Below, piece after piece: positions 8,969 through 50,013 of a DNA stretch of 64,000 nucleotides; position 1 is the stretch's first letter; each line of letters opens with the position of its first letter. The notes under the pieces are model-generated. The model searched no databases. It had not been told where the DNA came from and was given only the letters and a program-made list of their open reading frames with translations. Position numbers and translations under genes: made by a program. This DNA is from Aliikangiella coralliicola (lineage in GTDB: Bacteria; Pseudomonadota; Gammaproteobacteria; Enterobacterales; Kangiellaceae), in NCBI RefSeq assembly GCF_007004725.1, contig NZ_ML660167.1, positions 1 to 64,000 on the forward strand, given 5' to 3'.

Positions 8969-10439
<1,471 letters not shown>

Positions 10440-31312: not shown

Positions 31313-32089
31313 TTAGAACTCAAACAAAAAATGACTTTCCTTTTCTACTGTTCCTTCTGGTGTAAAACTGCGCTCAACAAAAGTGAGCTTATTATTCGTG
31401 TCTATCAATACCAGGGTGCTGGAGCGTGTGCCGTATTCTTTTCCAGTAATAAAAATAGAAGACAGGCGTTTTTCCCATTCTAATGGGATCCCTGTGTCCG
31501 GCAGCAAATTAGTTTCTGGTTTTGATTGATCTTTTAATATTTCGAATAACTGATCGAAGGGAATTTGTTCCGTTGAATCCAGCTTGTCGCTTTTTTCAAC
31601 TAAGGATTTAAGTTGACAAGTTCCTTTAGCCATCTTGGGCCAAATATCGTCAATGGCACCATTGGAAACAGAATGAAAACCTGAGTCGAGGAAAGTGTGA
31701 GTTTGAGTGACACTATTAAAACAATAAAGCGTTTTATGGTTACCATAAATTAAGTTAAATGGATTAAATGTGTGTCCATGTTCGGCCAACCAGGTTTGAT
31801 TAATGGGAGAATCTGGTTCTAATGCCAGCGTGATCAGATCGCCCCTTGAACGCTTATCTGGATCTTGAGCTTGTCCATTTCTGATATTGGTGACCGCAGC
31901 AAATTCCCCTCCATTATTGACCCCAAACCAACTTCCGCCGGCTTGCAAATCTTTGCCGGCCAATAAGTAAGGTCGATCAGGCCAAAAGCTCGCCAGGCGA
32001 GTAGGGCGGCTATGAGATTCATCTCTGTTGGCGCAAATAATAAGTGGAAATTGTGGATGTTGTCTAATCGCTGTAAACAAAATACACAT
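31313..32089 (-). CDS. NRDE-family protein (TANGO2-like)
   Basis: The protein has 258 residues from ATG 32089, which has AGGA at good spacing. It begins M-C-I-L-F, and ICANRDES is the NRDE motif that names the family. AGGSWFGVNNGGEFAAVTN is also conserved. Relatives (TANGO2, HRG-9) have been linked to heme movement and lipid homeostasis. The cysteine at position 2 resembles the nucleophile of Ntn hydrolases, but catalysis is unproven. It is encoded downstream of the TPR kinase on the same strand with about 150 bases between, so co-transcription is possible. Confidence 0.88.
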   Translation of the reverse strand: MCILFTAIRQHPQFPLIICANRDESHSRPTRLASFWPDRPYLLAGKDLQAGGSWFGVNNGGEFAAVTNIRNGQAQDPDKRSRGDLITLALEPDSPINQTWLAEHGHTFNPFNLIYGNHKTLYCFNSVTQTHTFLDSGFHSVSNGAIDDIWPKMAKGTCQLKSLVEKSDKLDSTEQIPFDQLFEILKDQSKPETNLLPDTGIPLEWEKRLSSIFITGKEYGTRSSTLVLIDTNNKLTFVERSFTPEGTVEKESHFLFEF

Positions 32090-32237
32090 CAAATGATCCT
32101 GATTTATCGCAATGAATTTGATAATAACTTGAATGGAGTGAAAATGGTTTTAGTTTTGCGAACAAATTTGTTTCAATTGATGTTTATGGCGATGACTTTT
32201 ATCCTCGACGTATCTTAACGCTAAGTATGTTTTTATC

Positions 32238-34253
32238 TTAATTATATTCTGCAATTGCTAAGCTAAACGAAAACTCAGTACCCACGCCCAATATTGAATT
32301 AACTTCTAAAATGCTGTTATGTAAGTGGAGCAACTCACGGGTGATCGGCAGGCCTAATCCAGAGCCTTCATTGGTGCGAGTAGAACTGCCGTCCACTTGT
32401 TCAAAAGGCTCAAAAATATGGAGTAACTCTTCTTCAGGGATCCCAATTCCCTGGTCTTTAATCGTTATTTTAATTTCAGCGTCAACTTTCTTTGCAATAA
32501 TATAAATGCTGCCTTTGTCACTGAATTTTATTGAATTACCGACTAGATTGAGCAGCACTTGGTTTAATCTTTCAGGATCGGCTGAAACTGGCGGTAGTGC
32601 CAGTGGTAGTTGAGTTTTTAGTTCGAGACCTTTTTGTCCAGCGAGTTGAGCCAACAAAGAGTAGACCTGCTCGACAACCGTTTCTAAATCAACCGCAGTC
32701 ACTTTGAGTTTTAATTTGCCAGCTTGTAATTGTGAGAAGTCAGTAATGTCCTGCACAAGACTCAATAGGCGTTGGCCGCAATTTTCGATAACTTTAATGT
32801 AATCTGCATTTTCTTCAGAAAGCCCTTCGTTCGATTCATCGAGTAACACCTGGGTCATACCGATGATGCCGTTGAGCGGCGTACGCAGTTCGTGAGAAGT
32901 GTTCGCCATGACCTGGTTTTTGACTTTGTCGAGCTCCTTTAACCGCTCGCTGACTTGCTTATGATCGAGTAATAATTTTCGTTGAGTTCGCCGGTAAAAT
33001 AGAAAGAAAATAATTGCGGCGGCAAACAGCAAGCTACCGATAACGGCCAGGGAAATAACGCGTTGTTGTTCAATTTTTAATAGTTGCAGCGCATTTTCTG
33101 ACTGAAGCAAATCAATTTGATGATTCTTCTTTTCGAGATCAAACTTTGCTTGCATCACTGACAACTGGGTATTTGCCCTTGAGTTGATAAAATCTCTCTC
33201 GATCATTACTGCTGTTTTATATAATTCGAGTGCCTGAGAGTGCTTACCAAGCTCCTCTAAAATCTGAGATTTCATACGATACCCCAGTTTCTGATTTTCC
33301 TTGTCATCAGTTTCAAGTGCTAATTTAATTGATCGGTCTACGTCAGTGAGCGCCAATTCAAAGTCACCTAGTTCAAGCAATGCTCTTGCTTTTAAGTGCA
33401 AAGTGTTGGCTTCGCGAAACAGGCGATTGCCTTTTTTCGCAGATATCAGCGTTTGTTCGAATAATTCGATAGCTTCCTTTGGTTTACCTTGTTCTAACAG
33501 GCTATAACCCAATCCTCTGGAAACAAGTTCTTGCCCCAACTGGTCATTAGTTTTCTTATAAAGTTCTAAGGCTTTATAGAAGTTTTGAATTGCATTTTCA
33601 GGTTCTCCAAGCACTTCATAAGTGTTTGCAAAACCCAAATACATCTTAGCCTGATCTCTGTCTGTTGTTGCAATTTCCCCGGACTGTCGATAAAAATCTA
33701 ACGCAGCATAGGGTTTTGCAGCATGAAGGTAGGTATTGGCGATATTGTTGAATACTCGGCCGAGAAAAATTTTATTGTTTTGTTGGCGATAGTAAGAAGC
33801 CGCTTCCTGATAATGTGATAATGCCTCATCATATACTCCGATAGCTTGAAAAACGTTACCCTGTAACACTTTTGAACGAGCAGTGGCACCTTCGAGTTGG
33901 TTGTTTTTTGCATGGACTTCGGCATTCTTGGCACGTTGCATCGCCTCTGTGTAGCGACCAAGAAAATAGAGTGCATAAGAAGACTCATTTAATACTGTCG
34001 CTTTTGAAACAGCATCCGGCGATTTCTCGAAATATCTGAGCGCTGTTTCGGCAATATTGACCGCGGTCGCAGGATCATTTCGCGCGTGCTCTTTCACCTG
34101 GTTTGCGAACCATTTACCATCAAGGCTATCCGGTTGAACATCACTGGACTGGTTTGAAGAGAAGCTGGGAACTCTCGCCGGGCTTAGCGTGCTAATAAAA
34201 ACAAAGCTCGCCAGAATTAAGTAGCTGGCGAGCTTGATACTGACTGATTTCAT
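32238..34253 (-). CDS. Sensor histidine kinase with extracytoplasmic TPR domain
   Basis: This is a 671-residue membrane kinase. A signal peptide (1-27) is followed by tetratricopeptide repeats spanning about 50-350, such as GVYDEALSHYQEA, GEPENAIQNFYKALELYKK, GKPKEAIELFEQ and GKHSQALELYKTA. A short coiled coil and one transmembrane helix (about 399-420) lead to the kinase core: His454 in NTSHELRTPLNG, N573, DQGIGIP at 600-606 and GSGLGLPI near 630. There is no receiver domain and no response regulator in the operon. Its ATG lies five bases after the stop of the small precursor-like gene and lacks a strong site of its own, suggesting translational coupling. The TPR sensor may bind a peptide or protein (inference). 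Confidence 0.92.
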   Translation of the reverse strand: MKSVSIKLASYLILASFVFISTLSPARVPSFSSNQSSDVQPDSLDGKWFANQVKEHARNDPATAVNIAETALRYFEKSPDAVSKATVLNESSYALYFLGRYTEAMQRAKNAEVHAKNNQLEGATARSKVLQGNVFQAIGVYDEALSHYQEAASYYRQQNNKIFLGRVFNNIANTYLHAAKPYAALDFYRQSGEIATTDRDQAKMYLGFANTYEVLGEPENAIQNFYKALELYKKTNDQLGQELVSRGLGYSLLEQGKPKEAIELFEQTLISAKKGNRLFREANTLHLKARALLELGDFELALTDVDRSIKLALETDDKENQKLGYRMKSQILEELGKHSQALELYKTAVMIERDFINSRANTQLSVMQAKFDLEKKNHQIDLLQSENALQLLKIEQQRVISLAVIGSLLFAAAIIFFLFYRRTQRKLLLDHKQVSERLKELDKVKNQVMANTSHELRTPLNGIIGMTQVLLDESNEGLSEENADYIKVIENCGQRLLSLVQDITDFSQLQAGKLKLKVTAVDLETVVEQVYSLLAQLAGQKGLELKTQLPLALPPVSADPERLNQVLLNLVGNSIKFSDKGSIYIIAKKVDAEIKITIKDQGIGIPEEELLHIFEPFEQVDGSSTRTNEGSGLGLPITRELLHLHNSILEVNSILGVGTEFSFSLAIAEYN

Positions 34254-34258
34254 AAATA

Positions 34259-34570
34259 TTAATGACTTCGTCTGAGACCTATTAAGCTCACGTTATTGTC
34301 GGTATTAGTCGTGTTCGTATTTTGTCCATTAGTGGCACTTTTTTCCAAATTGCTCCAATCACTAGAAACCGAACTAAGCTTCTTAGCCATCAAGTCTTTG
34401 AGCTGACTCTGAGTTAAGGATATGATTTCGTCACTTTCTTTAATGCCCGCCTTGGAAAGTATTTTTTTCCTATTTTCGGCGACTTCTTCAACTGTCTTTC
34501 CGCTGTTAAATAATTCTAGCTTAGAAGCATCAGTTGATAAGTCGAGATAAAATTGACTTAATTTATCCAT
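34259..34570 (-). CDS. Probable split-borosin RiPP precursor peptide
   Basis: This 103-residue protein has AGAGGAAA before its ATG. Residues 1-65 are predicted helical (LSQFYLDLSTDASKLELFNS, then KTVEEVAENRKKILSKAGI and LTQSQLKDLMAKKL). They resemble the helical borosin-binding domain that precedes the core in OphMA and in Shewanella SonA. A Ser/Asn/Thr-rich spacer (about 66-93) follows, then a short tail with hydrophobic residues V94-S-L-I-G-L99 and a basic RRSH end, the likely modified core. It sits 47 bases after the methyltransferase gene and 5 before the kinase gene. A Nif11-like leader was considered but the double-Gly cleavage site is absent. Confidence 0.75.
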   Translation of the reverse strand: MDKLSQFYLDLSTDASKLELFNSGKTVEEVAENRKKILSKAGIKESDEIISLTQSQLKDLMAKKLSSVSSDWSNLEKSATNGQNTNTTNTDNNVSLIGLRRSH

Positions 34571-34617
34571 ACATATTTCCTCTTTAATTAAGTAGTTAAA
34601 AATGTAAATCTCCAGGA

Positions 34618-35469
34618 CTAGTTAATCGCTTTTTCTTTTTCATCTTTTACCGGCTGGTCCCAAGCCGACAAATCTGCTTCGGTTAATCCTAACCATTCGA
34701 GCCTTTCTTTGGCAAAGTTCAATTCAGAATATGAAGGAACAACCAGCGTGGTTATTGATTTGACCGAAGCCGCTGGTAAGTCTTCTAACTCAATCCAGTC
34801 AATACGTGGGTCAAAACCGGGCAGGGTTGGTGCTTCATACAAACAAACCTTATGATCAGACGGATAGTGCTCCATTAGCAAACGTGTTATCGCTGATAAT
34901 CCTCGCTTACCAGGTTGTTGTAATTTTAAAGTATGTTCACCAACGAGCCCTATTTGCCATAAAATTAATGCTGCGCCGTTGTCGATATCGCGGGCGGTTA
35001 ATAAAAATTGGGTTGATTCATAAGCTTGGCAGCCTGTTGTTGCAGGGTCCAGGTTTAAATCAGCGAATAAACACGCGTCAGCAGAAATACCGGGCAACAT
35101 TTTGACAGAGTAACCTTGTTGCTCCAACCGATCACGGGCAATATGGGTCGAAAGTACGAAAATGCCAGGGTGTCCATAGTAGATCGTGCACACCTTTTTT
35201 CCGCTCTGCACCAATTCTTCCATTCTATCGACCATTAAATAATAGGTTTGTAGGCGGGTAGTATCTTCTTTATAAAGTAACCCTAAATTTTCTATATTTG
35301 GGTTTAACGCGCGAATTTGTTGTACTGACAGCGCATTTGGCGCAACCACCAGAACGATATCAGCATGCTGAATATGGCTTTGAGTCTCAAGCGTCATATG
35401 GCCTGGATGAAGTCCACACCCAGCAATTACCAAGCTTCCCTGTTTGCATTGGCTTTCAGATTTTTCCAT
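34618..35469 (-). CDS. Borosin-type peptide alpha-N-methyltransferase (SonM-like)
   Basis: This 283-residue protein has the tetrapyrrole-methylase fold that borosin enzymes use to put methyl groups from SAM on peptide backbone nitrogens. Visible motifs are GCGLHPGHMTLE at 17-28 (SAM site), YKEDTTRLQTYYLM at 66-79, YYGHPGIF at 97-104, LPGISADACLFADL at 125-138 and LDPATTGCQAYE. Tyr66, Arg72 and Tyr76 line up with residues known to be catalytic in fungal OphMA. OphMA carries its substrate as a C-terminal fusion; this protein ends after about 283 residues and the substrate-like peptide is the next gene. I prefer ATG 35469 (AAGGA 10 bases upstream) over a TTG nine bases earlier. A cobalamin-pathway methylase is unlikely because no such genes are near. 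Confidence 0.87.
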   Translation of the reverse strand: MEKSESQCKQGSLVIAGCGLHPGHMTLETQSHIQHADIVLVVAPNALSVQQIRALNPNIENLGLLYKEDTTRLQTYYLMVDRMEELVQSGKKVCTIYYGHPGIFVLSTHIARDRLEQQGYSVKMLPGISADACLFADLNLDPATTGCQAYESTQFLLTARDIDNGAALILWQIGLVGEHTLKLQQPGKRGLSAITRLLMEHYPSDHKVCLYEAPTLPGFDPRIDWIELEDLPAASVKSITTLVVPSYSELNFAKERLEWLGLTEADLSAWDQPVKDEKEKAIN

Positions 35470-35798
35470 TTGTATCAAATCCTTAAGAGGTTTTGTTCGT
35501 GTTTTTTATCATATTAGAACAAATAGTTGCTCAGGGCGAAAGTTTTTATGACTATCGTTTTAACTGCGTTTTAGTTAGAGGCACCTAAAAGTGTAAAATC
35601 ATGCTCGTTAAATAAAGTTAACACCTGACTATAATGCTGTTTTCGAATTCAGATTAGTGAGGTGGACAGGCGGATAGTTGCGGTAGATAAGGAAGGCGAA
35701 GCGATAATCTCCAGCGATAACCCAGATGGTAAGCATGTTTGATAGCAACCACAAGTTGATTGAGCGATTCTGGATAAAGGCGATGAGTTCGAGCTAAG
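35470..35798. other. Gene-free region upstream of the borosin-like operon
   Basis: About 330 bases lie between the methyltransferase start and the stop of the next minus-strand gene. On the minus strand a TATGAT hexamer near 35510 is a possible -10 element, without a good -35. The part next to the upstream gene encodes nothing I can support. Confidence 0.35.
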
Positions 35799-36083
35799 TC
35801 AAGCTCGAACATCGATTTGACTGCCAACTGTTTCTTCAGCAGTTGTCCTTTCTTCCCTTTCATTCGCCGCCGCCTGTTGTTGTTCTCTTTGTTCGCGCGC
35901 TTGAACCTGCTCTTGAGCATTGGTTTCGTTGATCGCTGGTGTCTGATTAGTCACGGTTTCTTCCGTTGGCGTCGCAGCGTTTACCTCTGGCGTTTCTAAC
36001 TCTTGCTGTTGTTCTTGACGCTGCAGGTTGTTGTTAACTTGTGTGTCTAAGACTGGATTCGAAGTATTAATTGAGATTGGCAT
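35799..36083 (-). CDS. Small Gln/Glu-rich disordered protein
   Basis: This 94-residue protein is almost entirely Gln, Glu, Asn, Thr and Ala, with a helical charged region at 55-80 (EQVQAREQREQQQAAANERE). It opens MPISINTSNP, like the openings of neighbouring low-complexity proteins. The gene follows 36104-36604 on the same strand after 20 bases, so the two form an operon. It has no membrane segment or known domain. Function is unknown. Confidence 0.5.
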   Translation of the reverse strand: MPISINTSNPVLDTQVNNNLQRQEQQQELETPEVNAATPTEETVTNQTPAINETNAQEQVQAREQREQQQAAANEREERTTAEETVGSQIDVRA

Positions 36084-36103
36084 TATAAGGTTCCTTAGAA
36101 AGC

Positions 36104-36604
36104 TTAAACTTGAAAGTTGATAAAATTACCAATACTTTGTTGCTGTAATTGGAAGCGTTTACGATTAATTTCTAGCTCTTTTTGCTGTAATTGACTTATT
36201 TCTCGTTCAATTTGTTGTTCTTGTTGTTGCAGCGCATCCTGGCGGCTTTGTATATCTTGTTGCTCTGTTGTCAGCTCTCTTAATTGATTGAGAGTGGAAT
36301 CCTGGGGCGGTGGTGGCTCAAACGATTGTTGATTAATATTATTATCTTGAGCGACTTGGCGATTAATTTCAATAAATGGACTTTCGAGCTGATCATCCTG
36401 ATTGACTTGTATGACTGGAGCAGGTGTAATTCCCACGTTGCCAACAGTGCTAGCAGATATATTTGCTGAAGTGCTATTTGACGATGGGCTATTTGCAACA
36501 TTGAGTGTCGCCGATGATAAAGCAGCCGTACTTCCCTGTGAAACACTGGTATCATTCGTTTGAGAGCTAATAAGCTGTCCTGGCGCACTGATTGATATTA
36601 CCAC
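36104..36604 (-). CDS. Low-complexity protein with C-terminal coiled coil
   Basis: This 166-residue protein opens MVISISAPGQ. It has a Ser/Thr/Asn-rich first half (about 1-80), a Pro patch (FEPPPPQDS) and a Gln/Glu-rich coiled coil at about 103-155 with heptad spacing of Leu and Ile. The end reads SIGNFINFQV. It is the first gene of a two-gene operon with the protein at 35799. I do not recognise it. It may be a structural or secreted partner of its neighbour. Confidence 0.55.
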   Translation of the reverse strand: MVISISAPGQLISSQTNDTSVSQGSTAALSSATLNVANSPSSNSTSANISASTVGNVGITPAPVIQVNQDDQLESPFIEINRQVAQDNNINQQSFEPPPPQDSTLNQLRELTTEQQDIQSRQDALQQQEQQIEREISQLQQKELEINRKRFQLQQQSIGNFINFQV

Positions 36605-37468: not shown

Positions 37469-39637
37469 TTAGTCAAATTCTATGTATTGAATGCTCGATA
37501 CTCGCTTTGAATAGTAGGCAAAAACCAATCGTTGGTTATGTTTGTCTATGGTCATATTTTTTTGATTCCGAAGTGTGCCCATAGGAAACTTAGCTAAAAG
37601 TTGCGTCTCATTAGTATTTAAATCAAGCCGATAAATTTTGTCATAAGCGGGAGCTTCGTCATTTCGATAGCGTTTTAAGTAAACCAGAAAGTTATCATAG
37701 ACATCCCAGTTTCCCCAGTCAGTATTATCCATATCTTGAACAAGGCGTTTTCTATTATTGAAATTGTTTGTAGCAATTTGCCATATTTCTCCTAATGGAT
37801 TTGCAGCAAAAAAGTAATCACTATTTGAACCTGGTTTTGTGTGGATAAAGGGAAGGTTTAGTGCCTGGTGTTCTCCATTTTGTCTAAATTGATTTGTCCA
37901 CAAAAATGGGTGACCATTACTATCCAGCTGGCTGCTAATGATAGCTGAATCATCAAAGTTCCAACTTGGAGATAGCGATTCGATGCTGCTTTCTTTTGTC
38001 AGAGGGAACAAGGTGTTCAATTTTAGATCGTAGATAAAAAGTGCAAATTTGTTTGCTTGCTCATGGGAGCGAATTTCAGAATTCGAACCTGAAAAAGCGA
38101 CATACCTGCCACTTTTCGAACAAGAAGGCGCAAAGGCAATACTTTCATTACCGAAGCGAGTAAGTTGTTTGAGCTTTTCATTTTTTATTTGCCAGATTTC
38201 TTGTCCACCAGAAGAGTTTGAGATAAATATTATCGAGTCGGTTCCTTCACAATAACTGGGTTGGAAGTCAATCGAAAATGTCTGGGGATAGGGGAAAATT
38301 TCGGTCACAGTTGAAGTTGAATTTAAATTAATGCTGCCGAGTTGGCTTGGTTCTTGTCGTTTTACAAAAAACAGTCGATTATGTTTAGCATCAAATGCAA
38401 GATCGCTCATTTGACAGCAAGAGACGCCGAGTTCAAGCAAACTCGTTTTGTCCTTTGATAGCTGATAAAGCGATCTATTGTTGTTGTCTCTATCCCATCC
38501 AGTTAGAAATATGTCATTGTTAGGAAGTATCACCAACCCATAAATTTTCGCCAGAGTTTGAGAGATGTTATAGGTAGTTTGGGTTACCTCGCGACTATCA
38601 ATGTCAACTTGAAATAATTCAGGTCGTTCGATCGATTTTTGCCTGACGAAATAAAGTGTTTTGCTATCAGCAGACCAGGTAGGGAAGAAATCACTAAAGG
38701 GTCCTGTTTTTTCTATCAGTGAAATCTGAGAAATCGTTGATGAAGTGTCGGGTCTAATAATACTGATAGTATCTTTGTCAGAACTATAGGCAATAAACTC
38801 TCCGCTAGGAGACCAGCTCAGAGAGGCTGCTCCGAATCGGGTGATTAAGCATGGGGCTAGTTTTACCTGTTTGTCTGTAGATAATTGATAGAGCATGACA
38901 TTGCAGTCCTGGCTTCCTTTTACCATACGTAAATACGCGAAATGATCGCCATCAGGGGACCACACTGGTTTCAAATCATCATGTGTATCATCAGTTAGTT
39001 GACGTGGCGCTTTGTTGGAATCAGGTTGTTTAATAAAGATACTTGCTTTGCCTGAATTTTTACGCCAACTAAATAACATTTGATCGCCATTGGGCGCAAT
39101 AGCAGGGTAGCGCTCTAGCCCAAAATTATTGGATGCGGAAACAACTTTTAAATCGTCGGACACGCCGTTCAAATTTTTATTAGTCAGGCTAAATAAAACG
39201 AATACAGTTGCCAAGAGCAGAAAAGTAATGACAAAGAGAAATAGGAGGCGATGAACTTGTTTCTTCCAATTTTTTTCTGAGTTAGGTTGCTGTTGCAAGC
39301 TTTCTTCAATAGCTAGCAAGTTAGTCTGTGGAACCAACCATTTGTATCCAACTTTCGGAATAGTTTCCAGGTAAACAGGATTTGCCGCATCTTCCTTAAG
39401 TGCTTTACGTATCCGCCATAATGCATTGCTGACTCCCTGGTCACCGACATATTCATTGCCATCCCACACAACATCAATTAACTCTGCCTTGGAAATTGTT
39501 TTTCCGGCGTTGTTTATCAGATGAGTTAATACTTGAACAGTTTTTCTTGGTAACTTGGTTTCTGATTGTTCGGTGAGGTTAACGAGGATCCCTCTCTCAG
39601 CATCTAATTGCTGATTGGCAAAACTAACAGATGTCAA
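37469..39637 (-). CDS. Membrane transcription regulator: winged helix plus PD40 propeller (paralog A)
   Basis: This is a 722-residue CadC-like one-component regulator. The OmpR/PhoB-type winged helix spans about 1-105 (recognition region GDQGVSNALWRIRKAL at 66-80, ending LETIPKVGYKW). A transmembrane helix lies at about 131-151, and a periplasmic TolB-like PD40 beta-propeller (about 165-722) has repeats such as RYPAIAPNGDQMLFSW and KPVWSPDGDHFAYLR. Such proteins can bind DNA from the membrane when the outer domain senses a ligand. The start is TTG with AAGGA upstream. It shares its layout and C-terminal RVSSIQYIE ending with the proteins at 39788 and 56774. Confidence 0.88.
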   Translation of the reverse strand: MTSVSFANQQLDAERGILVNLTEQSETKLPRKTVQVLTHLINNAGKTISKAELIDVVWDGNEYVGDQGVSNALWRIRKALKEDAANPVYLETIPKVGYKWLVPQTNLLAIEESLQQQPNSEKNWKKQVHRLLFLFVITFLLLATVFVLFSLTNKNLNGVSDDLKVVSASNNFGLERYPAIAPNGDQMLFSWRKNSGKASIFIKQPDSNKAPRQLTDDTHDDLKPVWSPDGDHFAYLRMVKGSQDCNVMLYQLSTDKQVKLAPCLITRFGAASLSWSPSGEFIAYSSDKDTISIIRPDTSSTISQISLIEKTGPFSDFFPTWSADSKTLYFVRQKSIERPELFQVDIDSREVTQTTYNISQTLAKIYGLVILPNNDIFLTGWDRDNNNRSLYQLSKDKTSLLELGVSCCQMSDLAFDAKHNRLFFVKRQEPSQLGSINLNSTSTVTEIFPYPQTFSIDFQPSYCEGTDSIIFISNSSGGQEIWQIKNEKLKQLTRFGNESIAFAPSCSKSGRYVAFSGSNSEIRSHEQANKFALFIYDLKLNTLFPLTKESSIESLSPSWNFDDSAIISSQLDSNGHPFLWTNQFRQNGEHQALNLPFIHTKPGSNSDYFFAANPLGEIWQIATNNFNNRKRLVQDMDNTDWGNWDVYDNFLVYLKRYRNDEAPAYDKIYRLDLNTNETQLLAKFPMGTLRNQKNMTIDKHNQRLVFAYYSKRVSSIQYIEFD

Positions 39638-39787
39638 AAATCAATCCTTAACTATTATCTATACCTAAAAATCTTTGACCACTGTATACATGCCATCGTT
39701 GTTAAAATCAATTAGCTTATTGCTGAAGTGTCGAGGAATGCTGATAAACGTAAAATAAAAGGAGCCAGTATTGGGAAGTTTACTTAG

Positions 39788-42004
39788 CTAGTTTAATTCG
39801 ATATATTGAATGCTAGAAATATGTTTTAAGTAGTACCCCAAAACTAGTTGATTTTCTTTTGAGTTGTAAGCAAGGTTAGCCTGGTTATGAACAGTTTGAT
39901 AGGGCAGTTTTGCGATTAATTTTCGCTCATTTGTTGTTATATCAAGTGAGTAGATTTCGTCATGGTCGAGAGCGCGTTTTAAGAAAAACAGAGTGTTTTC
40001 ATCGATAACCCAGTTTCCCCAATCCATAATATTCAATTCGGCTTCAATAATTTTTCTTTGTTGGTAGTCATTCGCAGAAATTTGCCAGATTTCGCCTTTG
40101 TCATTAAAACCATACAGCCATTGGCCGGTTGGCTCCGCCCTGGTGTAGATAAATGCTAGTTCCAGATTTTTATAATGTCCCTGTGCTTTAAACTCATTGA
40201 GCCAGAGGTGAGGGACAGGACCATGGTCAACGCTTAGGATGGCTGAATTGTTAAAATTCCAGGATGGTGCATAAATGCCCTTGTTATTTGCCAGTGCAAA
40301 GGTTGTATTAAGCTCTTGATCGTAAACATAAAGTTTCAGGTCCATAATTTTTTCTACCTGTGGTATGGCACCGGTAAAAGCTATGTACCGTCCATTGGCT
40401 GAACAATTTGGCCAGAAGATAGCACTGTTTTCCCCATAGTGTGTCAGTTGAGTGAGGGAATTATTTTCACCTGACATCATCCAAAGATTAGTGCTACCCG
40501 AAGAATTGGATGTAAATACGATACTATCAGTTTTTTCACAGTATGTTGGCTGAAGATCGGAATTGAAAGTTTGTACAAGCGGCAGAACTTTAGTCGCTGG
40601 AACCGATGTGTTTAAGTCGATGTATCCTAAGTGAGACTCTTCCACTCGTTTGACAAAATATAGTCGATTATTTCTCGCATCTAGCGCTGGGTCGATTACA
40701 TGTTGGTTTGAAGCCTCGAGTTTTACTGGGGTGCTCTCGCCAGGTAGAAGTTTAAAAAGTTTGGCGTTTGTAGGACTCTCTTCCGCAGCTGTGAAATAGA
40801 TAACTTCATCTGGAGAAATACTCATCCCGAAAATACGCTTAAACTTATCAGTTTTTTGCATTACAGGTTTCAATTTTTTGTTGGTGATAGCAACAGCGTA
40901 AATTCCTTGACTAACCTGAGCATTTTGCCTGACAAAATACAATTTTTTACTATCGGGACTCCAGCCTGGATAAAGATCCATCACGTCACCAGGATTTTCC
41001 ACAACAACTTGCGTTTCTCGAGTGTCAAGTGAAATGATACTGATTGAGGAAACTGTAACTTCTTTTTTAGTTTTGCTGTCAGATTTAAGATTGATAGAAT
41101 TATAAGCGAGGTATTTTCCATCAGGAGACCAGCTCAGCGACGCGATATCAGCAATGAGCATACAGCTAGTCAGCTTATACTCTTCACTGGTTGCTAAATC
41201 ATGAACCATTAAACTACAGGATACATCGACTTTATCTTGACGGATAAAGGCAAAATATTTTCCGTCCGGTGACCACACAGGTTTAAAATCGTCGTGACTG
41301 TCGTCGGTTATTTGCACCGGAGCTTTGATGTTGCCCAATTCTTTAATATAGATACTGGATTTACGCGCGCCTCGTCGCCAACTGAATAACATTTTACTGC
41401 CATCGGGGGATATCGCAGGGTAGCGCTCAACCCCATAATTGCTGGATGCGGAATGGATGAGATGTGCACTGCCAGTAAGCTTGCTAATGTCTTTGCGATA
41501 AATCGATATTGTGGTACCAATAATCAAAAACATTAGTAGGCTTATTATTGCTATTGTTGTTCGGTTGAAATGACGTTTGAATGAATTTTTATTATATTGC
41601 TGGAATTGCTGCGTCTTGTCAGCCACCTGATCAGTTAGCGAGGCTGCTGTTTCATCTGCTTTGAGTGGTGAAGGTTCTGTGGAAGTATACTGAGCAAAAA
41701 TCTTCCATTTGTAACCAACTTTTGGAATGGTTTCCAGATACCTGGGGCTAGTTGAGTCTTCACCAAGTGCCTTACGAATTCGCCACAAAGCATTACTGAC
41801 ACCCTGATCTCCAACATAATCATTGCCTTTCCATACGTTCTCGATTAATTCCCGTTTCGAGACTGTCTTTCCGGTGTTATCAATAAGATAGATAAGTACA
41901 AGAAGCGTTTTTCTGGGGAGCTTAACCTTAGATTGAAGAGTTGCGTTGAAAAGGAGGCCTCTCTCTGTATCTAAATACCAATTGTCGAAATTAATCTGAG
42001 CCAA
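39788..42004 (-). CDS. Membrane transcription regulator: winged helix plus PD40 propeller (paralog B)
   Basis: This is a 738-residue protein with the same architecture as paralog A: winged helix 1-105, a longer polar linker, transmembrane helix at about 149-168, then a periplasmic PD40 propeller (AISPDGSKMLFSWRR, KPVWSPDGKYFAFIR, SLSWSPDGKYLAYNS). It starts with TTG after AGGA. It stands head-to-head with the 2551-residue secreted protein across 353 bases and is its most likely regulator (inference). It is in tandem with paralog A, with 150 bases between. Confidence 0.88.
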   Translation of the reverse strand: MAQINFDNWYLDTERGLLFNATLQSKVKLPRKTLLVLIYLIDNTGKTVSKRELIENVWKGNDYVGDQGVSNALWRIRKALGEDSTSPRYLETIPKVGYKWKIFAQYTSTEPSPLKADETAASLTDQVADKTQQFQQYNKNSFKRHFNRTTIAIISLLMFLIIGTTISIYRKDISKLTGSAHLIHSASSNYGVERYPAISPDGSKMLFSWRRGARKSSIYIKELGNIKAPVQITDDSHDDFKPVWSPDGKYFAFIRQDKVDVSCSLMVHDLATSEEYKLTSCMLIADIASLSWSPDGKYLAYNSINLKSDSKTKKEVTVSSISIISLDTRETQVVVENPGDVMDLYPGWSPDSKKLYFVRQNAQVSQGIYAVAITNKKLKPVMQKTDKFKRIFGMSISPDEVIYFTAAEESPTNAKLFKLLPGESTPVKLEASNQHVIDPALDARNNRLYFVKRVEESHLGYIDLNTSVPATKVLPLVQTFNSDLQPTYCEKTDSIVFTSNSSGSTNLWMMSGENNSLTQLTHYGENSAIFWPNCSANGRYIAFTGAIPQVEKIMDLKLYVYDQELNTTFALANNKGIYAPSWNFNNSAILSVDHGPVPHLWLNEFKAQGHYKNLELAFIYTRAEPTGQWLYGFNDKGEIWQISANDYQQRKIIEAELNIMDWGNWVIDENTLFFLKRALDHDEIYSLDITTNERKLIAKLPYQTVHNQANLAYNSKENQLVLGYYLKHISSIQYIELN

Positions 42005-42357: not shown

Positions 42358-45300
42358 ATGAAATTTAAAAAATATCTTGTCTTAATTTTGGGAGTTTTGA
42401 GCCTGACGGGGGCAATCCAGTCTTCGGCGGACGAAGATAATATCAATGCACCGATGCAGATATTTGAAACGCGCTCAGACTCTATTGGCAATATTACAAG
42501 TTATTCCTCTCGCATTTCGGTCAATGATGTGACCGGAACAGTAAAGGCCAATTTGCCGACGGTTGGACCTGCTGCGTTTGGATTACAGCCTGTCTATGTG
42601 ACTAATAACCGAGTGGCTGAATTGCCGAATGAAGAAAACACAGAGTCTGGCACCACAGGGTTGATCGGGTCCAAAGAGCTGAGCGGTCGAGGCACAGTCG
42701 AAATACCGGGAAATTTTAATGGTAATACTCGATACATTTCGCTACCTGAAGGACATGGCTCGATTGACGATCCCAAACGAGCAAATGTCGGCGAAAGTTG
42801 GTGGATGGATTACGGGCGCTTAATTGTTCAAAGGGGTATTCTTGACTGGTCAGTGATACCCAGACCGGGCGGAGCGGTCAAGTGGTCTATGTGGTCGGAA
42901 GTCGCACTTTACGAAAATGGCAGCAAAACGCAGTTTTCTCGCGATTTGACTTTTATGAATTACCCGCAGCCTCAGCCTGGAGACCAGGAGCGGATTAATG
43001 ACTATGGCGATATCTGTTCCAGAGGCGCACTCGTACCAAATTGCCGGCCAGCACAGCTAGATGCTCATTTTATTGACGGAGATTTCAGGCGTATCACTAC
43101 TGATTCTGATAAAGCCTTCACCAAAGCTTATTATTATTTGTCGAAGCCTAATGGTGAAATAATCACTTATGCGCCCAGAGTCAAAAAGACGATTCCGTCG
43201 GAAAAACCTAACGCGGAAGAGTTTGATGCCGAGGCCTACCAGAATTACTTTGCTGAGTTTTACCCCATCGAAATTCAGCGAGCTAATGGGCAGAAAATTT
43301 TTATTCACTATCAGGGAGAAACGACACAAGAAGGGATCACTTATACGACAACCAATAAAATTGATTATGTTCAAGATCAATTTGGTCGGAAATTAAAGTT
43401 TGAGTATGAAGGACAGAGTCAATACGTCAAATATGTCAGGTTACTTCACGGAACTAAATCGCAGTTGCTGGTTACCTTTAACCGCTCTGACGGGCAAGTT
43501 AAACAGTTAGAAGATGCTGAATACCCGGATACTAAATATACAATTTCATATGTCAGACACGGGCATATCGATTTTATCGAGACTATTGAGTCTGATGACT
43601 TTGAGAGGGTCGATGTTACCTATAAGCGTTATGCCGTTGACAGGGCCGATCAAAACTCTAATGTGTGTTCGGGACCTCCCAACGACCAATCATGGTGCGA
43701 TACCATTTTCATTTTCAAGGACATTTATATTCGAGCAGCTGTAGTTTCGACTCAAGGCATTGACTACCAATATTGTTATTTTCAATATGGTGATAGAAAC
43801 AATAATGGTCAGTTGGATGATGACGAACATATCCGTGCAGATGATCGCGGTTGGGACAATGAAATTGTCGATTGGGCACCGTTTTATACAATGACCGTTT
43901 CTAATGGAACCTGTGAAGACAATGTATTGCCGATTGAGCAGGAAGGATTTAACGAAAATACTCATGCGGTAGCATCAGCCTATTTTATAGAAACTAATCT
44001 TCACCCAAGACGGAGCATGAGCGATATGCTCCAAGGTTTGATCACGTCAAGATGGGAGTTGTACAAAGGTAAGGAGAAGTGGGAAACCTGGAAATACCGG
44101 CCTTATATTGGTGATTGGAAGAAAAGAGGAATGGCTGGAGGAAACGCAGCAAATGGAACTATATTTGCGAAAGCTAAACTTCAGCAATACCGCCAACAGA
44201 TTGCCGACAACACCTGGCGACAAGTTGTCACAACGGATCCTTTTATAAACGTCGATATTTGGAAGCAGCCGTGGCGAATTGAGAGTTATCTTTGTCAAAA
44301 AACTCTCGGCGAAGACACGAATCTCTTTTTCGATAGTTGTGACAAGAAATCAAGAAACCAGTTAGTTCAATATATTCATGAACATCGTAACGCCGATACA
44401 CTTTATCCTTCTATGGGGGACGAGTTCGATTCTTCAATTCCTTATGTCACCAACTTAAGAACAAAGCGCGAAGTATTTGCAGATGTTAATGTCGATCAGA
44501 TAAATTCAGGAAAGCAGGTAGGCCGTCTGGAGGCTACTTATCATGATCTTTATCCGATACCGGTATCAACCACTCGTTACCACACACCCAACGATTCTTA
44601 TACAACGACTTATCAATATCATGGGTTGGACACGGGCTGTACCGATACGACTCACTTTGGATTTCTTTGTAGCGAAACCAAAAATGGCGGAGATAAAACA
44701 GAGTTCGGTAATTACCAGTTTGGTCAAGCAGGGCAGGTAAAACAAAATGACATCGTGTTAAAAACTGCGGAATATAATTTTCTTGGGCAAGTCACGAAAG
44801 AAACCAGCAATCAAGTCACAACAGCTTATGAGTATTATCCAGAGAATTTACGCCTGAAATTTAAAATAAACCCCTACGGTGTTTTTGAACTGTACGAATA
44901 TGAAGATGGCAGTTGTCCCGATGACAGCAGCGGTGTTTTCTCTTTCAACAGAGTGACTAATTCTTCCACTGGCAAAGTGACCACCAGTTGTTTTGATCAG
45001 TTTAAGCGGCCTGTCAGAACTCACGACATTGTTGACAATAGCGATGGTCAAAACCTGGCCGGTGATGTCAGCGAAACCGAATATGATCCGGTATTAGGGA
45101 TCAGTCTGACTTCCCACGATTTAACATCACCGCTAGGGAAAACAACCACCACCAAAGAAATTGATGTTTATGGTAGAACCACAAATCAGACAACCAGTTT
45201 TTATAGTGAGTCTAGTCAGACAGTTCCCGAAACCATTAATGTTTCCTTTACCTACGAATACGACGACTTTGAACTCACAACGACCGAAAGAACCCAATAT

Positions 45301-48300
45301 CTTGACAAGTTTGTAGAAAAAATCAGTGTTACTGATGAATTTGGCCGCGTGCTGAAAGCCGGATTAGATGGTTCGGGAAGTGATGCGGTTCAATACACTT
45401 TGCTTGGTTACTCTCGACAAAATGCTCTTCAGGTAACAGAAGTGAATGCCAACGGAAATATCCGGACCATGAAACATGACTGGATGAATCGTTTGCTGGA
45501 GGAAACCCATCCTGAACTGAAAAACATACCCGTTAAAAACGAATATAATGAAAAGGGGTTATTGGAGAAAACCACCACACCAACGGAAGTTTATTATTAC
45601 TCTTATAATGGTCGAAACTTGCTTGAGCAAGTTGAGTATGCGAGGCCAAATGATCCTGACAACAAAATTATCATTAAACGGTTCGATTATGATCTGAATC
45701 GAGGTGTGTTGTTAAAAACTCGAAATGGCGAAGGACTGACTGCAGAACAACCATCCGCTACAGCGAACCCCGATAGTTCCGAAGTTTCAGTGTCATTTTT
45801 ATCATTTAATTCATTGAATCAACCGACTCATATTCTTGTTGATATTCCTGATTTGCTTGCGCCGCCGACCGGCTTGGAAGTTGAAGGATTTTTGGGCAGA
45901 GATACCGAGTCGTTAGAAGTTAATTGGTCAGGTAACAATGACAGTTACGTGGTTGAATTCAGTAAGGCTGATTTACCGCCATTGGTGTGGGAAACCAGTG
46001 CGGCATCGTTAACCATTAACGCGAGCTCGTTTACCCAACAGCTTAATTCTCAGTACAGCCATCCTCAAGCGCCGCAAGAGATTAAAGACGTTTACAATGC
46101 CTATCAGGCCGACATCAGCGGTTCAAAATTTCTGGCTGATAATGGCGGCTACAAAGTTCGAGTTTATGGCATGAAAGGTTATGAGCCCTCAGTTCCCACG
46201 GAATATTTTCAGTTGGGTTCGGGACTCGATGACTTGACACTTGGCAGAGCAGAGTTCGATTTAACTTCACCAGTCGAGGAGAGCGAAAGCGATACTTCGA
46301 CCCTGACTTACAGCGCAGAAGCAACTGATAATATCGAAGTTGAACTACCGGTTTTCTCTGGTCCATTTGAAGCCAAATTTGTTGATACGCCGGCCAATAA
46401 AATGACTCTGATCCCCGGACAATCGGTGAATTTTTCCATCACATTTCACGCGCCCGCAGAAATCACCAGCTTCGAAGAAGAGTCCTTCTTTAAAATCAAT
46501 GGCGGTGCTTATACCTTACCGCTAAAAGTCAAAGGTACTTCCACTGAAGCAGGCTTGCCGATTATTAGTGTGAGTGGCGATTTAGATTTCGGGACTTTGC
46601 AATATGGTGAAAGTCGTGCCGTTGAAATTAGTGTGCGCAATGCTGGCGATGATGCGCTATCGGGTAACGTCATTGTGAGAAGCCTTGATACGGAAAATCC
46701 TGATACCTCAGCCATCACGCTTTCCACTCAGCGTTTTTCAGGTTTGAAAGGGGATGACACTCAACCGATTACCGTGACCTATAGCGCAGGGCCTGATGTT
46801 AATCAGCAACTGGAGCTCCGTTTTGTGGCGGATAATTCTTCTGTTGCTTCAGTGACTCGTCCCATTCAGGTGAATGTGATCCCCAATCTCAACAGTGGAA
46901 CCATGCATGTGCGGGATACCCAGGTTGATTTTGGTCAAATCTATGAAGGACATAAGGGAACGGAGCGAGTTCGAGTACGAAATAGTGAAACTCATTCGAC
47001 CCTGTATCGTTTTGATGTGACCTTAGTGTCTCACCCGAATGATGAATACGCCGGTGATCAACAATATTTTCGGCTTCAATCACCGCCAGGTGAGCAGTGC
47101 CCGCCGTTAAATTACAACTGGCAGTGCAGTGTGAAATTCGAATTTAATGCGCCATCAACAAAACGGGTTTATAAAGCCCTGGCGATTTTCACTCATGGTG
47201 ATAATCCGCCGGTTCAGGTGGAACTGACTGCTGAAAGTGTGGCTATGGCCAAAGCAGTGGTCACAGATACCTATGGCCAAATTCCGGAGTTGTTAAACTT
47301 TGGTTTGGTCCCGACCATGACTACGCCGCGAGAGATCGACCTGAAAATCAAAAATATCGGTTCTTTTAAACTGGCTTACCGAGTCTCCAGTTATTCGTAT
47401 AGCGACGATGGCCATAACCCCTTCAAGTTTAATCCAGCGATGGGTCAATGGTGGCTGCTGAATCCGGGCGATGAAAGTGATATTAAAGCGTTGTTTGATC
47501 CAGATGGCATGTATCCAGGAACATATCACGGTGGTTTTAAAATTGAAGAGTGTGCCGCAGGTACATCAAACCCCAATAACATCGTGACTGATTGTGAGGA
47601 GTATCGCCAGGAAATCAAACTGCCGGCTTATGGGTTGTTGAATATCGGTACGGTGGTTGAGTGGGAAGACACCCAGCCAACGGTTTTCCCTGCAGGCGCA
47701 CCAGGACAAAAAGTCAGACTGCCACTGAAGTTGAAAAACCTTAACTATCCAGACAGAGCAGACGCTTTTCCATTGGTGGTTTATGGTAAAGGTGCGTTTG
47801 CTGGACGTGTCAGCACATCGGGCGGCTTTGGTTGTTCCAGTTACTATTGCTTGCCGCCATCAGGAAGTTACGCTGAAGATAGACTTTATTTTAAAGTGCC
47901 TGCTATCGGCCAGCAAAGCGGCGAAATCTGTGTCGCGATTCAGACCATGGATGAACCGATGACTGAAGAATGTCAGGAATTTACTGCAACCGGTGTGCGT
48001 CCGGTTAAAATCGCCACGCAATATTACCCGAACGAAACTTATGAAGTGAAAGTCAATCCATTAAGACAAACTTCCGGTGCATTGCAAATGGATAACTGGG
48101 GTGTTTGTCGTCCGGTGAAAATTGAAAAGCCGCAGGGTAGTGTGGATATTTACGCCAGTGTCGATGCGCCTTTCTTCCTGTCGAAATTCAGACGTCATGA
48201 CTGGGAAGAGTTTCCTAAGTTGCCACTAGAAAGTCGACTTGAAGTTAATGCGGGACCATTTACCGAGTTTCACATCTGTGCCGGACCACAAGCATCTATT

Positions 48301-50013
48301 GGTGACGAAACCCGAATTACTTTTGAGCTAGATTATCCTGAATCAGCGTCAGACTCTTTTCCTGAAGATACCACCGTTGTCTCTCAGGTTCGCTATTTTG
48401 TACCGCAAAATGACGAAGTTGAAATTGAACTCGCCGCACCAAGCGAGCTGAACTTCGCTGCGGCTCAATTTGGCAGTGTGCGTTACCAGGAATTTGAAGT
48501 GCGCAACTTATCCACAGTTTCCACTAACTTGAAGTTTGATCGAAGGCTTACTGAATCTGATGGGCTTGGACGACAAATGGTTTATGGCCCTTTCAGAATT
48601 ACGGCACTGGCAAACGGTAAAGAAGTGCCGGTTGAACAGTTTGGTCTGGGACCAGCCGGTGCTGCTGGTGGTTTCGATCGCATTCGCTTGCGAGCTTATT
48701 ATGAACCCAAACTCACCAGTGACGCGGAACAAATCAGAATGACATTCCTTAGAGTAGACAACAATCAACCGGTTGACAGTTTGCTGCTTAAGGGAAGCGC
48801 GACTGGTTATGCCAATATTTATGACAGTGCAATCACTTTGTCAGAAAATAATCAGGTGTTAACGGAAATTGATTTTGGGAGTTTTGAGTCGAGTGAAATA
48901 CGCAGCTTTAACTTTCAAATCAAAAATAATTCTCACCATCAATTTAACCTGGATGTAAGATACGTTTCGTCATCCGGCTCCGCTAACGGCGCGATAGGAA
49001 CATCTGGCGCCAGCTTCGCATATTATGTTGGTGTAGCCGTTAATTCTCCAGGGGGTTATTTATCTAAGTATGGTATGGCGACACTGCCTGTTACTGTTAT
49101 TGCAGACGGTAAGGGGAACTTCAATGGCAGCTTGCAAATTTTGGCCGGTGGTCAATTGGTGAAGAGCTATCCGGTTAAGGGCAGTGTCGGTCAGTCGAAA
49201 CCTTTCACAGTTTACTATCGAGGTGAGCGCAAATTCTCGGGTGTTGCAGGAGTCGATAATTTCTCACCGCAAACCGTCGAAATTATTACTAATTCGAGAA
49301 GCTCAAGCAAAGGATTTAGTCGAGGCAGAAGTAGTAGCAGTAGTAGCGTGCGTTTCAAGCATCTGAATCAAACTAAAGCGTTGCATCCCATTGGTCCGAT
49401 TGAGGCATTCCCGACGACTAGTGGTGATGGTTATCGATTTACTTACAATGCCTCTTCAAATTATTGGCTGCATACTTATTACCGGCCAATGATTGAAGAT
49501 ACTTTAACCGGTAAACGTTATTCCTTATCCAATATTTACTATCAGATTGATGCAAAACCTTCGGATGAATTAACGGTGCTCAATCTTGAAAAAGGCTGGA
49601 TGGATTTCCGTTATACCGAGTATTACAAGCCACCTCATTCAGCGTCGGATTTAAATTACACACCTGAGTGGACGATTGTATTACGTAATAACACCAATCA
49701 AGCTCAGACTTATTCCCTTGAGTTTCAGGCCGTGGTCGACTATAGCGATTTTGCTCTGATTGAAAACAACGGTGCTTTCATTGTTTCGCAAAACAGCGTG
49801 ATTGTAGCGCCCGGTCAAAGTCGAGAAGTCACGATAAGAAATCATCCTCAGGATTATGGTGATACTTTATCGATACTCAGTATCAAAGAGGGAGGCCGTG
49901 TCCTTAAAACGATTCCGGTAAGAAGTATGCCGTTACCGAATAGTTTGTGTTACGACCCGGATCATCCTCTGTATGAATCTTTGGAACATTGTGACTGGCC
50001 GCTGGCGCACTAA
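42358..50013 (+). CDS. Giant secreted protein with YD/Rhs-like and ASH-like repeats
   Basis: This 2551-residue protein has a signal peptide (1-24, cleavage near SSA). Residues 25-330 are an uncharacterised N-terminal region. About 330-1165 contain Rhs/YD-type sequence (DQFGRKLKFEYEG, DEFGRVLKAGLDG, YNEKGLLEKTTTP). About 1170-1285 look like a fibronectin-III-type domain. From about 1300 to 2260 there are repeated Ig-like ASH (choice-of-anchor-D-like) units, marked by LDFGTLQYGESRAVEISVRN and four similar stretches near 1521, 1645, 2032 and 2170. A Ser-rich patch lies near 2314. There is no Rhs core and no toxin-like tail. It is followed after 38 bases by the Rhs-core gene and probably forms a surface or secreted complex with it. 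Confidence 0.88.
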   Translation: MKFKKYLVLILGVLSLTGAIQSSADEDNINAPMQIFETRSDSIGNITSYSSRISVNDVTGTVKANLPTVGPAAFGLQPVYVTNNRVAELPNEENTESGTTGLIGSKELSGRGTVEIPGNFNGNTRYISLPEGHGSIDDPKRANVGESWWMDYGRLIVQRGILDWSVIPRPGGAVKWSMWSEVALYENGSKTQFSRDLTFMNYPQPQPGDQERINDYGDICSRGALVPNCRPAQLDAHFIDGDFRRITTDSDKAFTKAYYYLSKPNGEIITYAPRVKKTIPSEKPNAEEFDAEAYQNYFAEFYPIEIQRANGQKIFIHYQGETTQEGITYTTTNKIDYVQDQFGRKLKFEYEGQSQYVKYVRLLHGTKSQLLVTFNRSDGQVKQLEDAEYPDTKYTISYVRHGHIDFIETIESDDFERVDVTYKRYAVDRADQNSNVCSGPPNDQSWCDTIFIFKDIYIRAAVVSTQGIDYQYCYFQYGDRNNNGQLDDDEHIRADDRGWDNEIVDWAPFYTMTVSNGTCEDNVLPIEQEGFNENTHAVASAYFIETNLHPRRSMSDMLQGLITSRWELYKGKEKWETWKYRPYIGDWKKRGMAGGNAANGTIFAKAKLQQYRQQIADNTWRQVVTTDPFINVDIWKQPWRIESYLCQKTLGEDTNLFFDSCDKKSRNQLVQYIHEHRNADTLYPSMGDEFDSSIPYVTNLRTKREVFADVNVDQINSGKQVGRLEATYHDLYPIPVSTTRYHTPNDSYTTTYQYHGLDTGCTDTTHFGFLCSETKNGGDKTEFGNYQFGQAGQVKQNDIVLKTAEYNFLGQVTKETSNQVTTAYEYYPENLRLKFKINPYGVFELYEYEDGSCPDDSSGVFSFNRVTNSSTGKVTTSCFDQFKRPVRTHDIVDNSDGQNLAGDVSETEYDPVLGISLTSHDLTSPLGKTTTTKEIDVYGRTTNQTTSFYSESSQTVPETINVSFTYEYDDFELTTTERTQYLDKFVEKISVTDEFGRVLKAGLDGSGSDAVQYTLLGYSRQNALQVTEVNANGNIRTMKHDWMNRLLEETHPELKNIPVKNEYNEKGLLEKTTTPTEVYYYSYNGRNLLEQVEYARPNDPDNKIIIKRFDYDLNRGVLLKTRNGEGLTAEQPSATANPDSSEVSVSFLSFNSLNQPTHILVDIPDLLAPPTGLEVEGFLGRDTESLEVNWSGNNDSYVVEFSKADLPPLVWETSAASLTINASSFTQQLNSQYSHPQAPQEIKDVYNAYQADISGSKFLADNGGYKVRVYGMKGYEPSVPTEYFQLGSGLDDLTLGRAEFDLTSPVEESESDTSTLTYSAEATDNIEVELPVFSGPFEAKFVDTPANKMTLIPGQSVNFSITFHAPAEITSFEEESFFKINGGAYTLPLKVKGTSTEAGLPIISVSGDLDFGTLQYGESRAVEISVRNAGDDALSGNVIVRSLDTENPDTSAITLSTQRFSGLKGDDTQPITVTYSAGPDVNQQLELRFVADNSSVASVTRPIQVNVIPNLNSGTMHVRDTQVDFGQIYEGHKGTERVRVRNSETHSTLYRFDVTLVSHPNDEYAGDQQYFRLQSPPGEQCPPLNYNWQCSVKFEFNAPSTKRVYKALAIFTHGDNPPVQVELTAESVAMAKAVVTDTYGQIPELLNFGLVPTMTTPREIDLKIKNIGSFKLAYRVSSYSYSDDGHNPFKFNPAMGQWWLLNPGDESDIKALFDPDGMYPGTYHGGFKIEECAAGTSNPNNIVTDCEEYRQEIKLPAYGLLNIGTVVEWEDTQPTVFPAGAPGQKVRLPLKLKNLNYPDRADAFPLVVYGKGAFAGRVSTSGGFGCSSYYCLPPSGSYAEDRLYFKVPAIGQQSGEICVAIQTMDEPMTEECQEFTATGVRPVKIATQYYPNETYEVKVNPLRQTSGALQMDNWGVCRPVKIEKPQGSVDIYASVDAPFFLSKFRRHDWEEFPKLPLESRLEVNAGPFTEFHICAGPQASIGDETRITFELDYPESASDSFPEDTTVVSQVRYFVPQNDEVEIELAAPSELNFAAAQFGSVRYQEFEVRNLSTVSTNLKFDRRLTESDGLGRQMVYGPFRITALANGKEVPVEQFGLGPAGAAGGFDRIRLRAYYEPKLTSDAEQIRMTFLRVDNNQPVDSLLLKGSATGYANIYDSAITLSENNQVLTEIDFGSFESSEIRSFNFQIKNNSHHQFNLDVRYVSSSGSANGAIGTSGASFAYYVGVAVNSPGGYLSKYGMATLPVTVIADGKGNFNGSLQILAGGQLVKSYPVKGSVGQSKPFTVYYRGERKFSGVAGVDNFSPQTVEIITNSRSSSKGFSRGRSSSSSSVRFKHLNQTKALHPIGPIEAFPTTSGDGYRFTYNASSNYWLHTYYRPMIEDTLTGKRYSLSNIYYQIDAKPSDELTVLNLEKGWMDFRYTEYYKPPHSASDLNYTPEWTIVLRNNTNQAQTYSLEFQAVVDYSDFALIENNGAFIVSQNSVIVAPGQSREVTIRNHPQDYGDTLSILSIKEGGRVLKTIPVRSMPLPNSLCYDPDHPLYESLEHCDWPLAH

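Follow-up and report, generated by a model that had tools for sequence, protein, structure and literature searches.

A type IV split borosin pair beside a TPR sensor histidine kinase in Aliikangiella coralliicola, perhaps a peptide-signalling module

Introduction

Split borosins, in which the methyltransferase and the precursor peptide are encoded by separate genes, are already known (PMC8429565, PMC11285071 and PMC11395268, in excerpt), and types IV to X have been described among them (Cho 2022 and Imani 2022, as cited in the same excerpts). The closest described relative of the locus reported here is the SonM/SonA pair of Shewanella oneidensis. Excerpts of PMC8429565 define residues 1-53 of SonA as the borosin-binding domain and give the active-site roles of SonM residues Y58, R67 and Y71. 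According to these excerpts, no type IV split borosin had been tied to a final natural product as of 2021.

Here we describe a borosin pair in a 64,000-nucleotide stretch of the Aliikangiella coralliicola genome, referred to below as the window, together with the sensor gene that adjoins it and the neighbours of 103 related methyltransferase ORFs. We suggest that the locus encodes a type IV split borosin to which a membrane sensor is dedicated, and that it is perhaps a peptide-signalling module.

Results

A sensor kinase gene follows the methyltransferase and precursor genes

An earlier note on this DNA had described a two-gene unit. On re-reading of the sequence, its 283-aa and 103-aa genes, their coordinates and the 47-base gap between them all proved correct, and the pair is real. 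The described extent was incomplete, however, as a sensor kinase gene starts on the same strand only 5 bases beyond the precursor stop (Table 1). Orthologue comparison revealed the pair in the same gene order in four other genomes, and these same-order pairs, together with the conserved tail described below, exclude the possibility that the precursor is a chance small ORF.

No terminator-like site was detected on the minus strand of 31900-36200. Promoter-like matches in the operon region were near chance (12 vs 8.5), and the operon is therefore deduced from the spacing of the genes. No transporter or protease gene is present within the operon.

Table 1. Features of the three-gene unit in the window
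Feature	Coordinates	Strand	Basis
Borosin-type peptide backbone alpha-N-methyltransferase (SonM homologue, Pfam TP_methylase), 283 aa	34618..35469	-	Homology, active-site alignment
Split-borosin precursor peptide, 103 aa	34259..34570	-	Profile match to SonA; orthologues
Precursor leader, residues 1-66, end approximate	34373..34570	-	Homology to SonA borosin-binding domain
Proposed precursor core, residues 89-99, NTDNNVSLIGL	34274..34306	-	Five-orthologue alignment; boundaries inferred
TPR sensor histidine kinase, 671 aa	32238..34253	-	Pfam, hydrophobicity scan, orthologue search

Upstream of the operon lie two Gln/Asn-rich ORFs (35799-36604, minus strand); in Pfam, the first gave no match at E<=1e-5 and the second only weak sub-threshold matches. 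Elsewhere, the window encodes a neighbouring pair of regulators that combine a Trans_reg_C domain with PD40 beta-propeller repeats (37469-42004, minus strand), a 2551-aa protein with ASH/HYDIN-type Ig-like domains (42358-50013, plus strand) and a YfiR-like (DUF4154) protein that also carries a HATPase domain (4994-6919, plus strand).

The methyltransferase resembles SonM

The methyltransferase, which starts at an ATG codon, contains the borosin methyltransferase motifs quoted in the earlier note. Its best solved relative in a phmmer search was SonM (7ltc; E 4.7e-55, 190 bits), with 40% identity across 261 aa. OphMA-type enzymes scored 121-135 bits, and a precorrin-2 methyltransferase only 18.8 bits. 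Pfam assigned the protein to PF00590 (TP_methylase; E 6.8e-17), and NCBIfam returned seven matches, to tetrapyrrole methylases and YabN, each far under its cut-off. In an alignment of 47 rows (the window enzyme, SonM and 45 others), Y66, R72 and Y76 align to SonM Y58, R67 and Y71 and are invariant in all 47 rows, as is Y98. The three aligned residues presumably carry the same numbers in OphMA. The nearest neighbour of the window enzyme in the methyltransferase tree is that of locus L035, with 71% identity.

The two genes are separate and adjacent, the enzyme has the SonM-type Tyr/Arg/Tyr active-site set, and the precursor leader is homologous to the borosin-binding domain, which together support classification of the genes as a type IV split borosin pair. 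With SonM and OphMA-type scores far above that of the precorrin-2 methyltransferase and a leader homologous to that of SonA, the split-borosin assignment of the earlier note withstood the sequence tests. The enzyme probably methylates the backbone of the peptide encoded by the adjoining gene.

The precursor has a borosin-binding leader and a polar, conserved tail

A profile built from eight precursors of the window clade (A3) matched seven SonA chains with E values of 4.7e-5 to 1.5e-3, and its match to 7ltc_B (E 1.7e-4) covered SonA residues 1-53. In hhalign, the precursor profile aligned over residues 1-64 with a profile of 18 other precursors (97.8% probability, E 7.4e-13), 15 of which matched the Pfam family LigA (borosin-binding domain LigA-like) at E<=0.1. 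The borosin-binding type of leader proposed from the letters alone is supported by homology both to SonA 1-53 and to the 18 other precursors.

Searched by itself, the window precursor had no LigA match in Pfam and no above-cut-off family match in Pfam or NCBIfam. A Ribosomal_S13 match (E 0.0081) was rejected as under that family's cut-off, and a likeness to designed TIM barrels, consisting of several weak stretches of one repeat in a single-sequence search, was likewise discarded. When the contigs of the genomes were scanned with a single protein query, one weak locus was found. No signal peptide is evident in the precursor.

The precursor consists of the leader (residues ~1-66), an Asn/Thr linker and a C-terminal tail, NTDNNVSLIG. 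Across five orthologues, the tail has the consensus [N/D]TDNx[V/L][S/G]x[F/I] and stands after a variable linker that follows W72; W72 and T90-D91-N92 are the invariant residues. The precursor of G002 has the tail unit twice (NTDNTACQF and NTDNTVSQF), and three more distant members of the clade have Asn-rich or Asn-containing C-terminal tails without the exact motif. The stretch V94-L99, which had been put forward as a short hydrophobic tail, is correctly numbered and is part of the conserved tail, but that tail is not purely hydrophobic, given its invariant residues. The remark that the core looks different holds, the conserved feature being the TDN-containing tail. The proposed core is polar and lies ~23 residues past the leader, as compared to ~10 in SonA.

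Other core types were seen in the sample. Many precursors linked to GGDEF proteins belong to a second conserved class, whose hydrophobic core ends in PA and precedes a long acidic tail (KIVCMLVPA type). This class is present in L040, L044, L046, L113, L125, L126 and others; a first regular expression found it in at least 3 loci, and the full listing contains more. On the minus strand of L050, a precursor-like ORF that starts 35 bases before the methyltransferase stop contains several tandem ASHKALIITPK-like units and is apparently a multi-core precursor.

The kinase is a TPR sensor whose closest listed relatives adjoin borosin genes

Pfam identified TPR repeats, a HisKA domain (residues 445-512) and a HATPase domain (559-666) in the kinase, and a hydrophobicity scan revealed hydrophobic segments at residues 4-22 and 399-417, so that all the elements of a TPR-sensor histidine kinase are present. 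From its placement between the two segments, the TPR domain is predicted to be periplasmic.

The order methyltransferase-precursor-sensor kinase was found in G000, G001, G005 and G049, and in G002 the kinase gene is interrupted by a contig end. The downstream flank of the operon is common to G000 and G001, and the flanks in G005 and G049 differ. In G049, which belongs to another family, two tandem methyltransferase genes that overlap by 8 bases (L037:7137-8778, plus strand) are followed by one precursor gene and one sensor kinase gene; both methyltransferases retain the active-site residues. A second locus in this genome, L041, has a more distant set of these genes.

A search of 61 genomes with kinase residues 1-400, in which the best <=30 candidates per genome were scored (the best 30 of 45 in G000), gave at least 9 matches at E<=1e-15. 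Among the matches listed, the top six score between 79.7 and 858 bits and all belong to window-type borosin loci, in G000, G001, G002, G005 and G049 (two). The remaining three listed matches scored 59-74 bits; they come from G016, G018 and G019, where each stands on a different contig from the methyltransferase hits of that genome.

Sensor genes adjoin most borosin methyltransferase genes

The locus sample comprised 103 methyltransferase ORFs (75 places from a first search and 28 more). Three weak methyltransferase hits of 20-23 bits were left out, and one source search was restricted to E<=1e-60; the sample thus leans to near kin. One additional genome sample that was searched for methyltransferases yielded nothing new. 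A candidate precursor ORF was found by a mechanical rule in 72 of the 103 loci.

A histidine kinase or GGDEF protein, a TPR-type protein or a TPR protein cut by a contig end adjoins 90 of the 103 ORFs, and the other 13 have no such neighbour. In a local test, same-strand adjacent histidine kinase genes (23, two methyltransferases of G049 sharing one kinase in this count) and GGDEF genes (47) accounted for 70 ORFs. A TPR-GGDEF gene that overlaps the methyltransferase start in L072, which was assigned manually and then verified with Pfam, raises the GGDEF total to 48. The neighbour is a TPR-only protein in 17 of the 103, of which 16 match TPR_12 and one, in L103, shows only a sub-threshold TPR_MalT match. 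Contig ends cut the TPR neighbour in two loci: in L036 its start resembles the window kinase, and in L089 it matches TPR_12 and its visible end, SHEIR, is like a kinase H-box. Among the 13 ORFs without a partner, L061 has a TPR-GGDEF gene on its upstream side, ending ~414 bases away, and a sigma-54 activator on its downstream side, and the first methyltransferases of L059, L064 and L066 are followed farther on by a second one that carries such a sensor gene. A partner is adjacent in 86 of 93 cases inside the taxonomic order and in 4 of 10 outside it.

TPR_12 was matched at E<=0.01 by 71 of the 90 adjacent proteins scanned (39/44 and 32/46), a few of the 90 not being sensors. An N-terminal hydrophobic segment and another before the output domain were found in 62 of the 70 histidine kinase or GGDEF partners scanned. 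All three borosin pairs of the window genome have a partner (histidine kinase, histidine kinase and GGDEF). In genus g11 of family f6, six loci (L068, L093, L094, L095, L146 and L151) encode methyltransferases with 64-77% identity to SonM, and the partner in each of them is a GGDEF protein.

Histidine kinase and GGDEF genes are common in the window genome, as 87 GGDEF and 91 HisKA matches, some of the latter below cut-off, were found in its 7.04 Mb. Within the same loci, such domains occurred in 68 of 95 adjacent ORFs of at least 300 aa, as compared to 15 of 277 non-adjacent ones, with adjacency defined as a distance of at most 700 bases on the downstream side or 60 on the upstream side of the methyltransferase gene (Fisher p 3e-37, a value that overstates the case because related loci were counted as independent).

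The output domain has been exchanged while the association persists

The sensor part of L113 is 49% identical to those of the GGDEF-type proteins of L125 (371 aa) and L126 (339 aa). Unlike these, L113 carries HisKA and HATPase domains. The first 66 residues of its precursor are 71% identical to those of the L125 precursor, with KIVCMIVPA in place of KIVCMLVPA. In L113 a related sensor and precursor are kept, and the output is a kinase where the others have a cyclase. No TPR match at E<=1e-4 was found in L113, L125 or L126, and we term their sensors TPR-like from their alignment to L040, which itself has only a sub-threshold RPN7 match.

Seven partner labels were placed on a methyltransferase tree of 98 rows, which comprise SonM and 97 of the 103 ORFs, the other six being omitted for length. 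They required 13 changes, as compared to a minimum of 6 and a mean of 47.9 after shuffling; three labels occur in single rows (two contig-cut loci and SonM), and the shuffles address label clustering only. Methyltransferase and sensor similarities were correlated over 70 loci (rho 0.65, permutations <=0.13) and among distant pairs (rho 0.49), a correlation that vertical descent alone could also produce.

Discussion

The sensor gene beside the pair raises the possibility that peptides of this kind act as signals. Our main reading is that the three genes occupying 35469 to 32238 on the minus strand form one functional unit in which the modified peptide is the ligand of the adjoining TPR kinase, and we put its probability at roughly one half. 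According to this reading, the SonM-like enzyme would bind the precursor leader and, like SonM acting on SonA, methylate backbone amides of the C-terminal tail. A protease encoded elsewhere would then free the modified tail, probably around NTDNNVSLIGL, and the freed tail would get to the periplasm or the outside. There, as the gene linkage suggests, the mature peptide would bind the kinase at its periplasmic TPR domain, and the kinase would pass the signal to a response regulator whose gene lies outside the operon.

The missing export route is the main weakness of the signalling reading, because there is no evident signal peptide in the precursor and no transporter or protease gene in the operon. 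The 13 of 103 ORFs without an adjacent partner also count against a dedicated sensor, as do the low share outside the taxonomic order (4 of 10) and the abundance of histidine kinase and GGDEF genes in the window genome. The 17 TPR-only loci, in which an output domain is lacking, fit receptor signalling less well, and the polar core and its distance from the leader tell against the reading as well. More broadly, and only tentatively, gammaproteobacterial split borosins might be peptide signals, that is, backbone-methylated pheromones, with dedicated periplasmic TPR or TPR-like receptors and an exchangeable output (histidine kinase, hybrid kinase, diguanylate cyclase or none).

The first alternative is a conventional natural-product cluster of the split-borosin type that brings its own regulator; the TPR kinase would then sense envelope state or nutrients and control peptide production. 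Biosynthetic clusters often have local regulators, and the kinase gene lies immediately behind the precursor gene, as such an arrangement would have it. We nevertheless consider this unlikely, since 65 of the 103 partners are GGDEF (48) or TPR-only (17) proteins, neither of which is a common kind of local transcription regulator, and since the swap in L113 altered the output while a related precursor and sensor were retained. It is less probable still that the TPR protein serves as a periplasmic peptide-binding partner in maturation, export or self-protection, with an output added in some lineages. The 17 TPR-only loci would suit such a role by making the TPR domain the more constant element, yet 71 of the 103 ORFs have a histidine kinase or GGDEF partner, and the two hydrophobic segments found in 62 of 70 such partners correspond to the typical architecture of transmembrane sensors.

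Linkage without function, in which sensor genes would stand beside the pair through descent alone, appears very improbable. A correlation of 0.65 between methyltransferase and sensor similarity is what vertical operon inheritance would be expected to give, but the unit is retained where the flanks differ and also in a second family, and output and position vary while the association persists. Furthermore, among the matches listed for the 61 genomes, none elsewhere was as strong as the six borosin-linked ones, the other three being weaker. Finally, a tetrapyrrole methylase beside an unrelated small gene, to which the Pfam family TP_methylase might point, is hardly credible given the scores of SonM (190 bits) and precorrin-2 methyltransferase (18.8 bits), the NCBIfam tetrapyrrole models far under cut-off and the conserved precursor with its borosin-binding leader.

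Returning to the signalling reading, a recurring sensor with exchanged outputs makes the function of bacterial borosins directly testable, through peptide binding and through kinase or c-di-GMP output. As the SonM-like g11 loci all have a GGDEF partner, the idea could be addressed in S. oneidensis itself, if the same neighbour is present there. If it is correct, natural products of obscure role would gain a physiological function, and backbone N-methylation would join the chemistry of bacterial peptide signals.

A limited literature search turned up neither diguanylate nor tetratricopeptide together with borosin in any paper, though the sensor link may already be published. For borosin and histidine kinase it returned a marine peptide review with a single occurrence of each term, and for borosin and quorum sensing, papers with one to three mentions of borosins. 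We regard the pair as a fresh member of the known split-borosin class and the sensor partnership with a polar core as a variant, the novelty of which is unsettled.

Lee et al. 2024 are said to have linked shewasin-type pepsin-like peptidases to borosins. The window operon has no aspartic-peptidase gene, in contrast to such borosins, but a paralogue locus of the window genome on contig C11 resembles them. Upstream of the methyltransferase gene of this second borosin paralogue (L040, C11:228000-244000), a pepsin-like aspartic peptidase is encoded at ~8855-10132 on the minus strand (Pfam Asp, E 7e-15), and it may release borosin peptides. ORFs with a DTGSS-type motif, recognized by the motif only, occur in L044, L046, L047 and L050.

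The RRNPP receptors of Gram-positive bacteria have cytoplasmic TPR domains and are of the DNA-binding (HTH) or phosphatase type. By analogy, the TPR domain described here is the proposed receptor of a short linear peptide, but it is predicted to be periplasmic and is joined to a histidine kinase, or to GGDEF in other loci. With its hydrophobic segments (4-22 and 399-417) and kinase output, the window kinase is not itself an RRNPP receptor.

OphMA, dbOphMA and MroMA, of the omphalotin type, share a homologous methyltransferase domain with the window enzyme. In these proteins the precursor is fused to the enzyme, whereas in the window it is encoded by a separate gene. The likeness to SonM/SonA of S. 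oneidensis, as described in excerpts of PMC8429565, is closer and includes a separate enzyme and precursor, 40% enzyme identity, the same active-site residues and a homologous leader. As compared to SonA, the window precursor has a longer leader and linker, and its tail, unlike the SonA core, is Asn/Thr-rich with a conserved TDN. The next gene of the window unit encodes a TPR histidine kinase, whereas the SonM-like g11 loci have a GGDEF protein instead.
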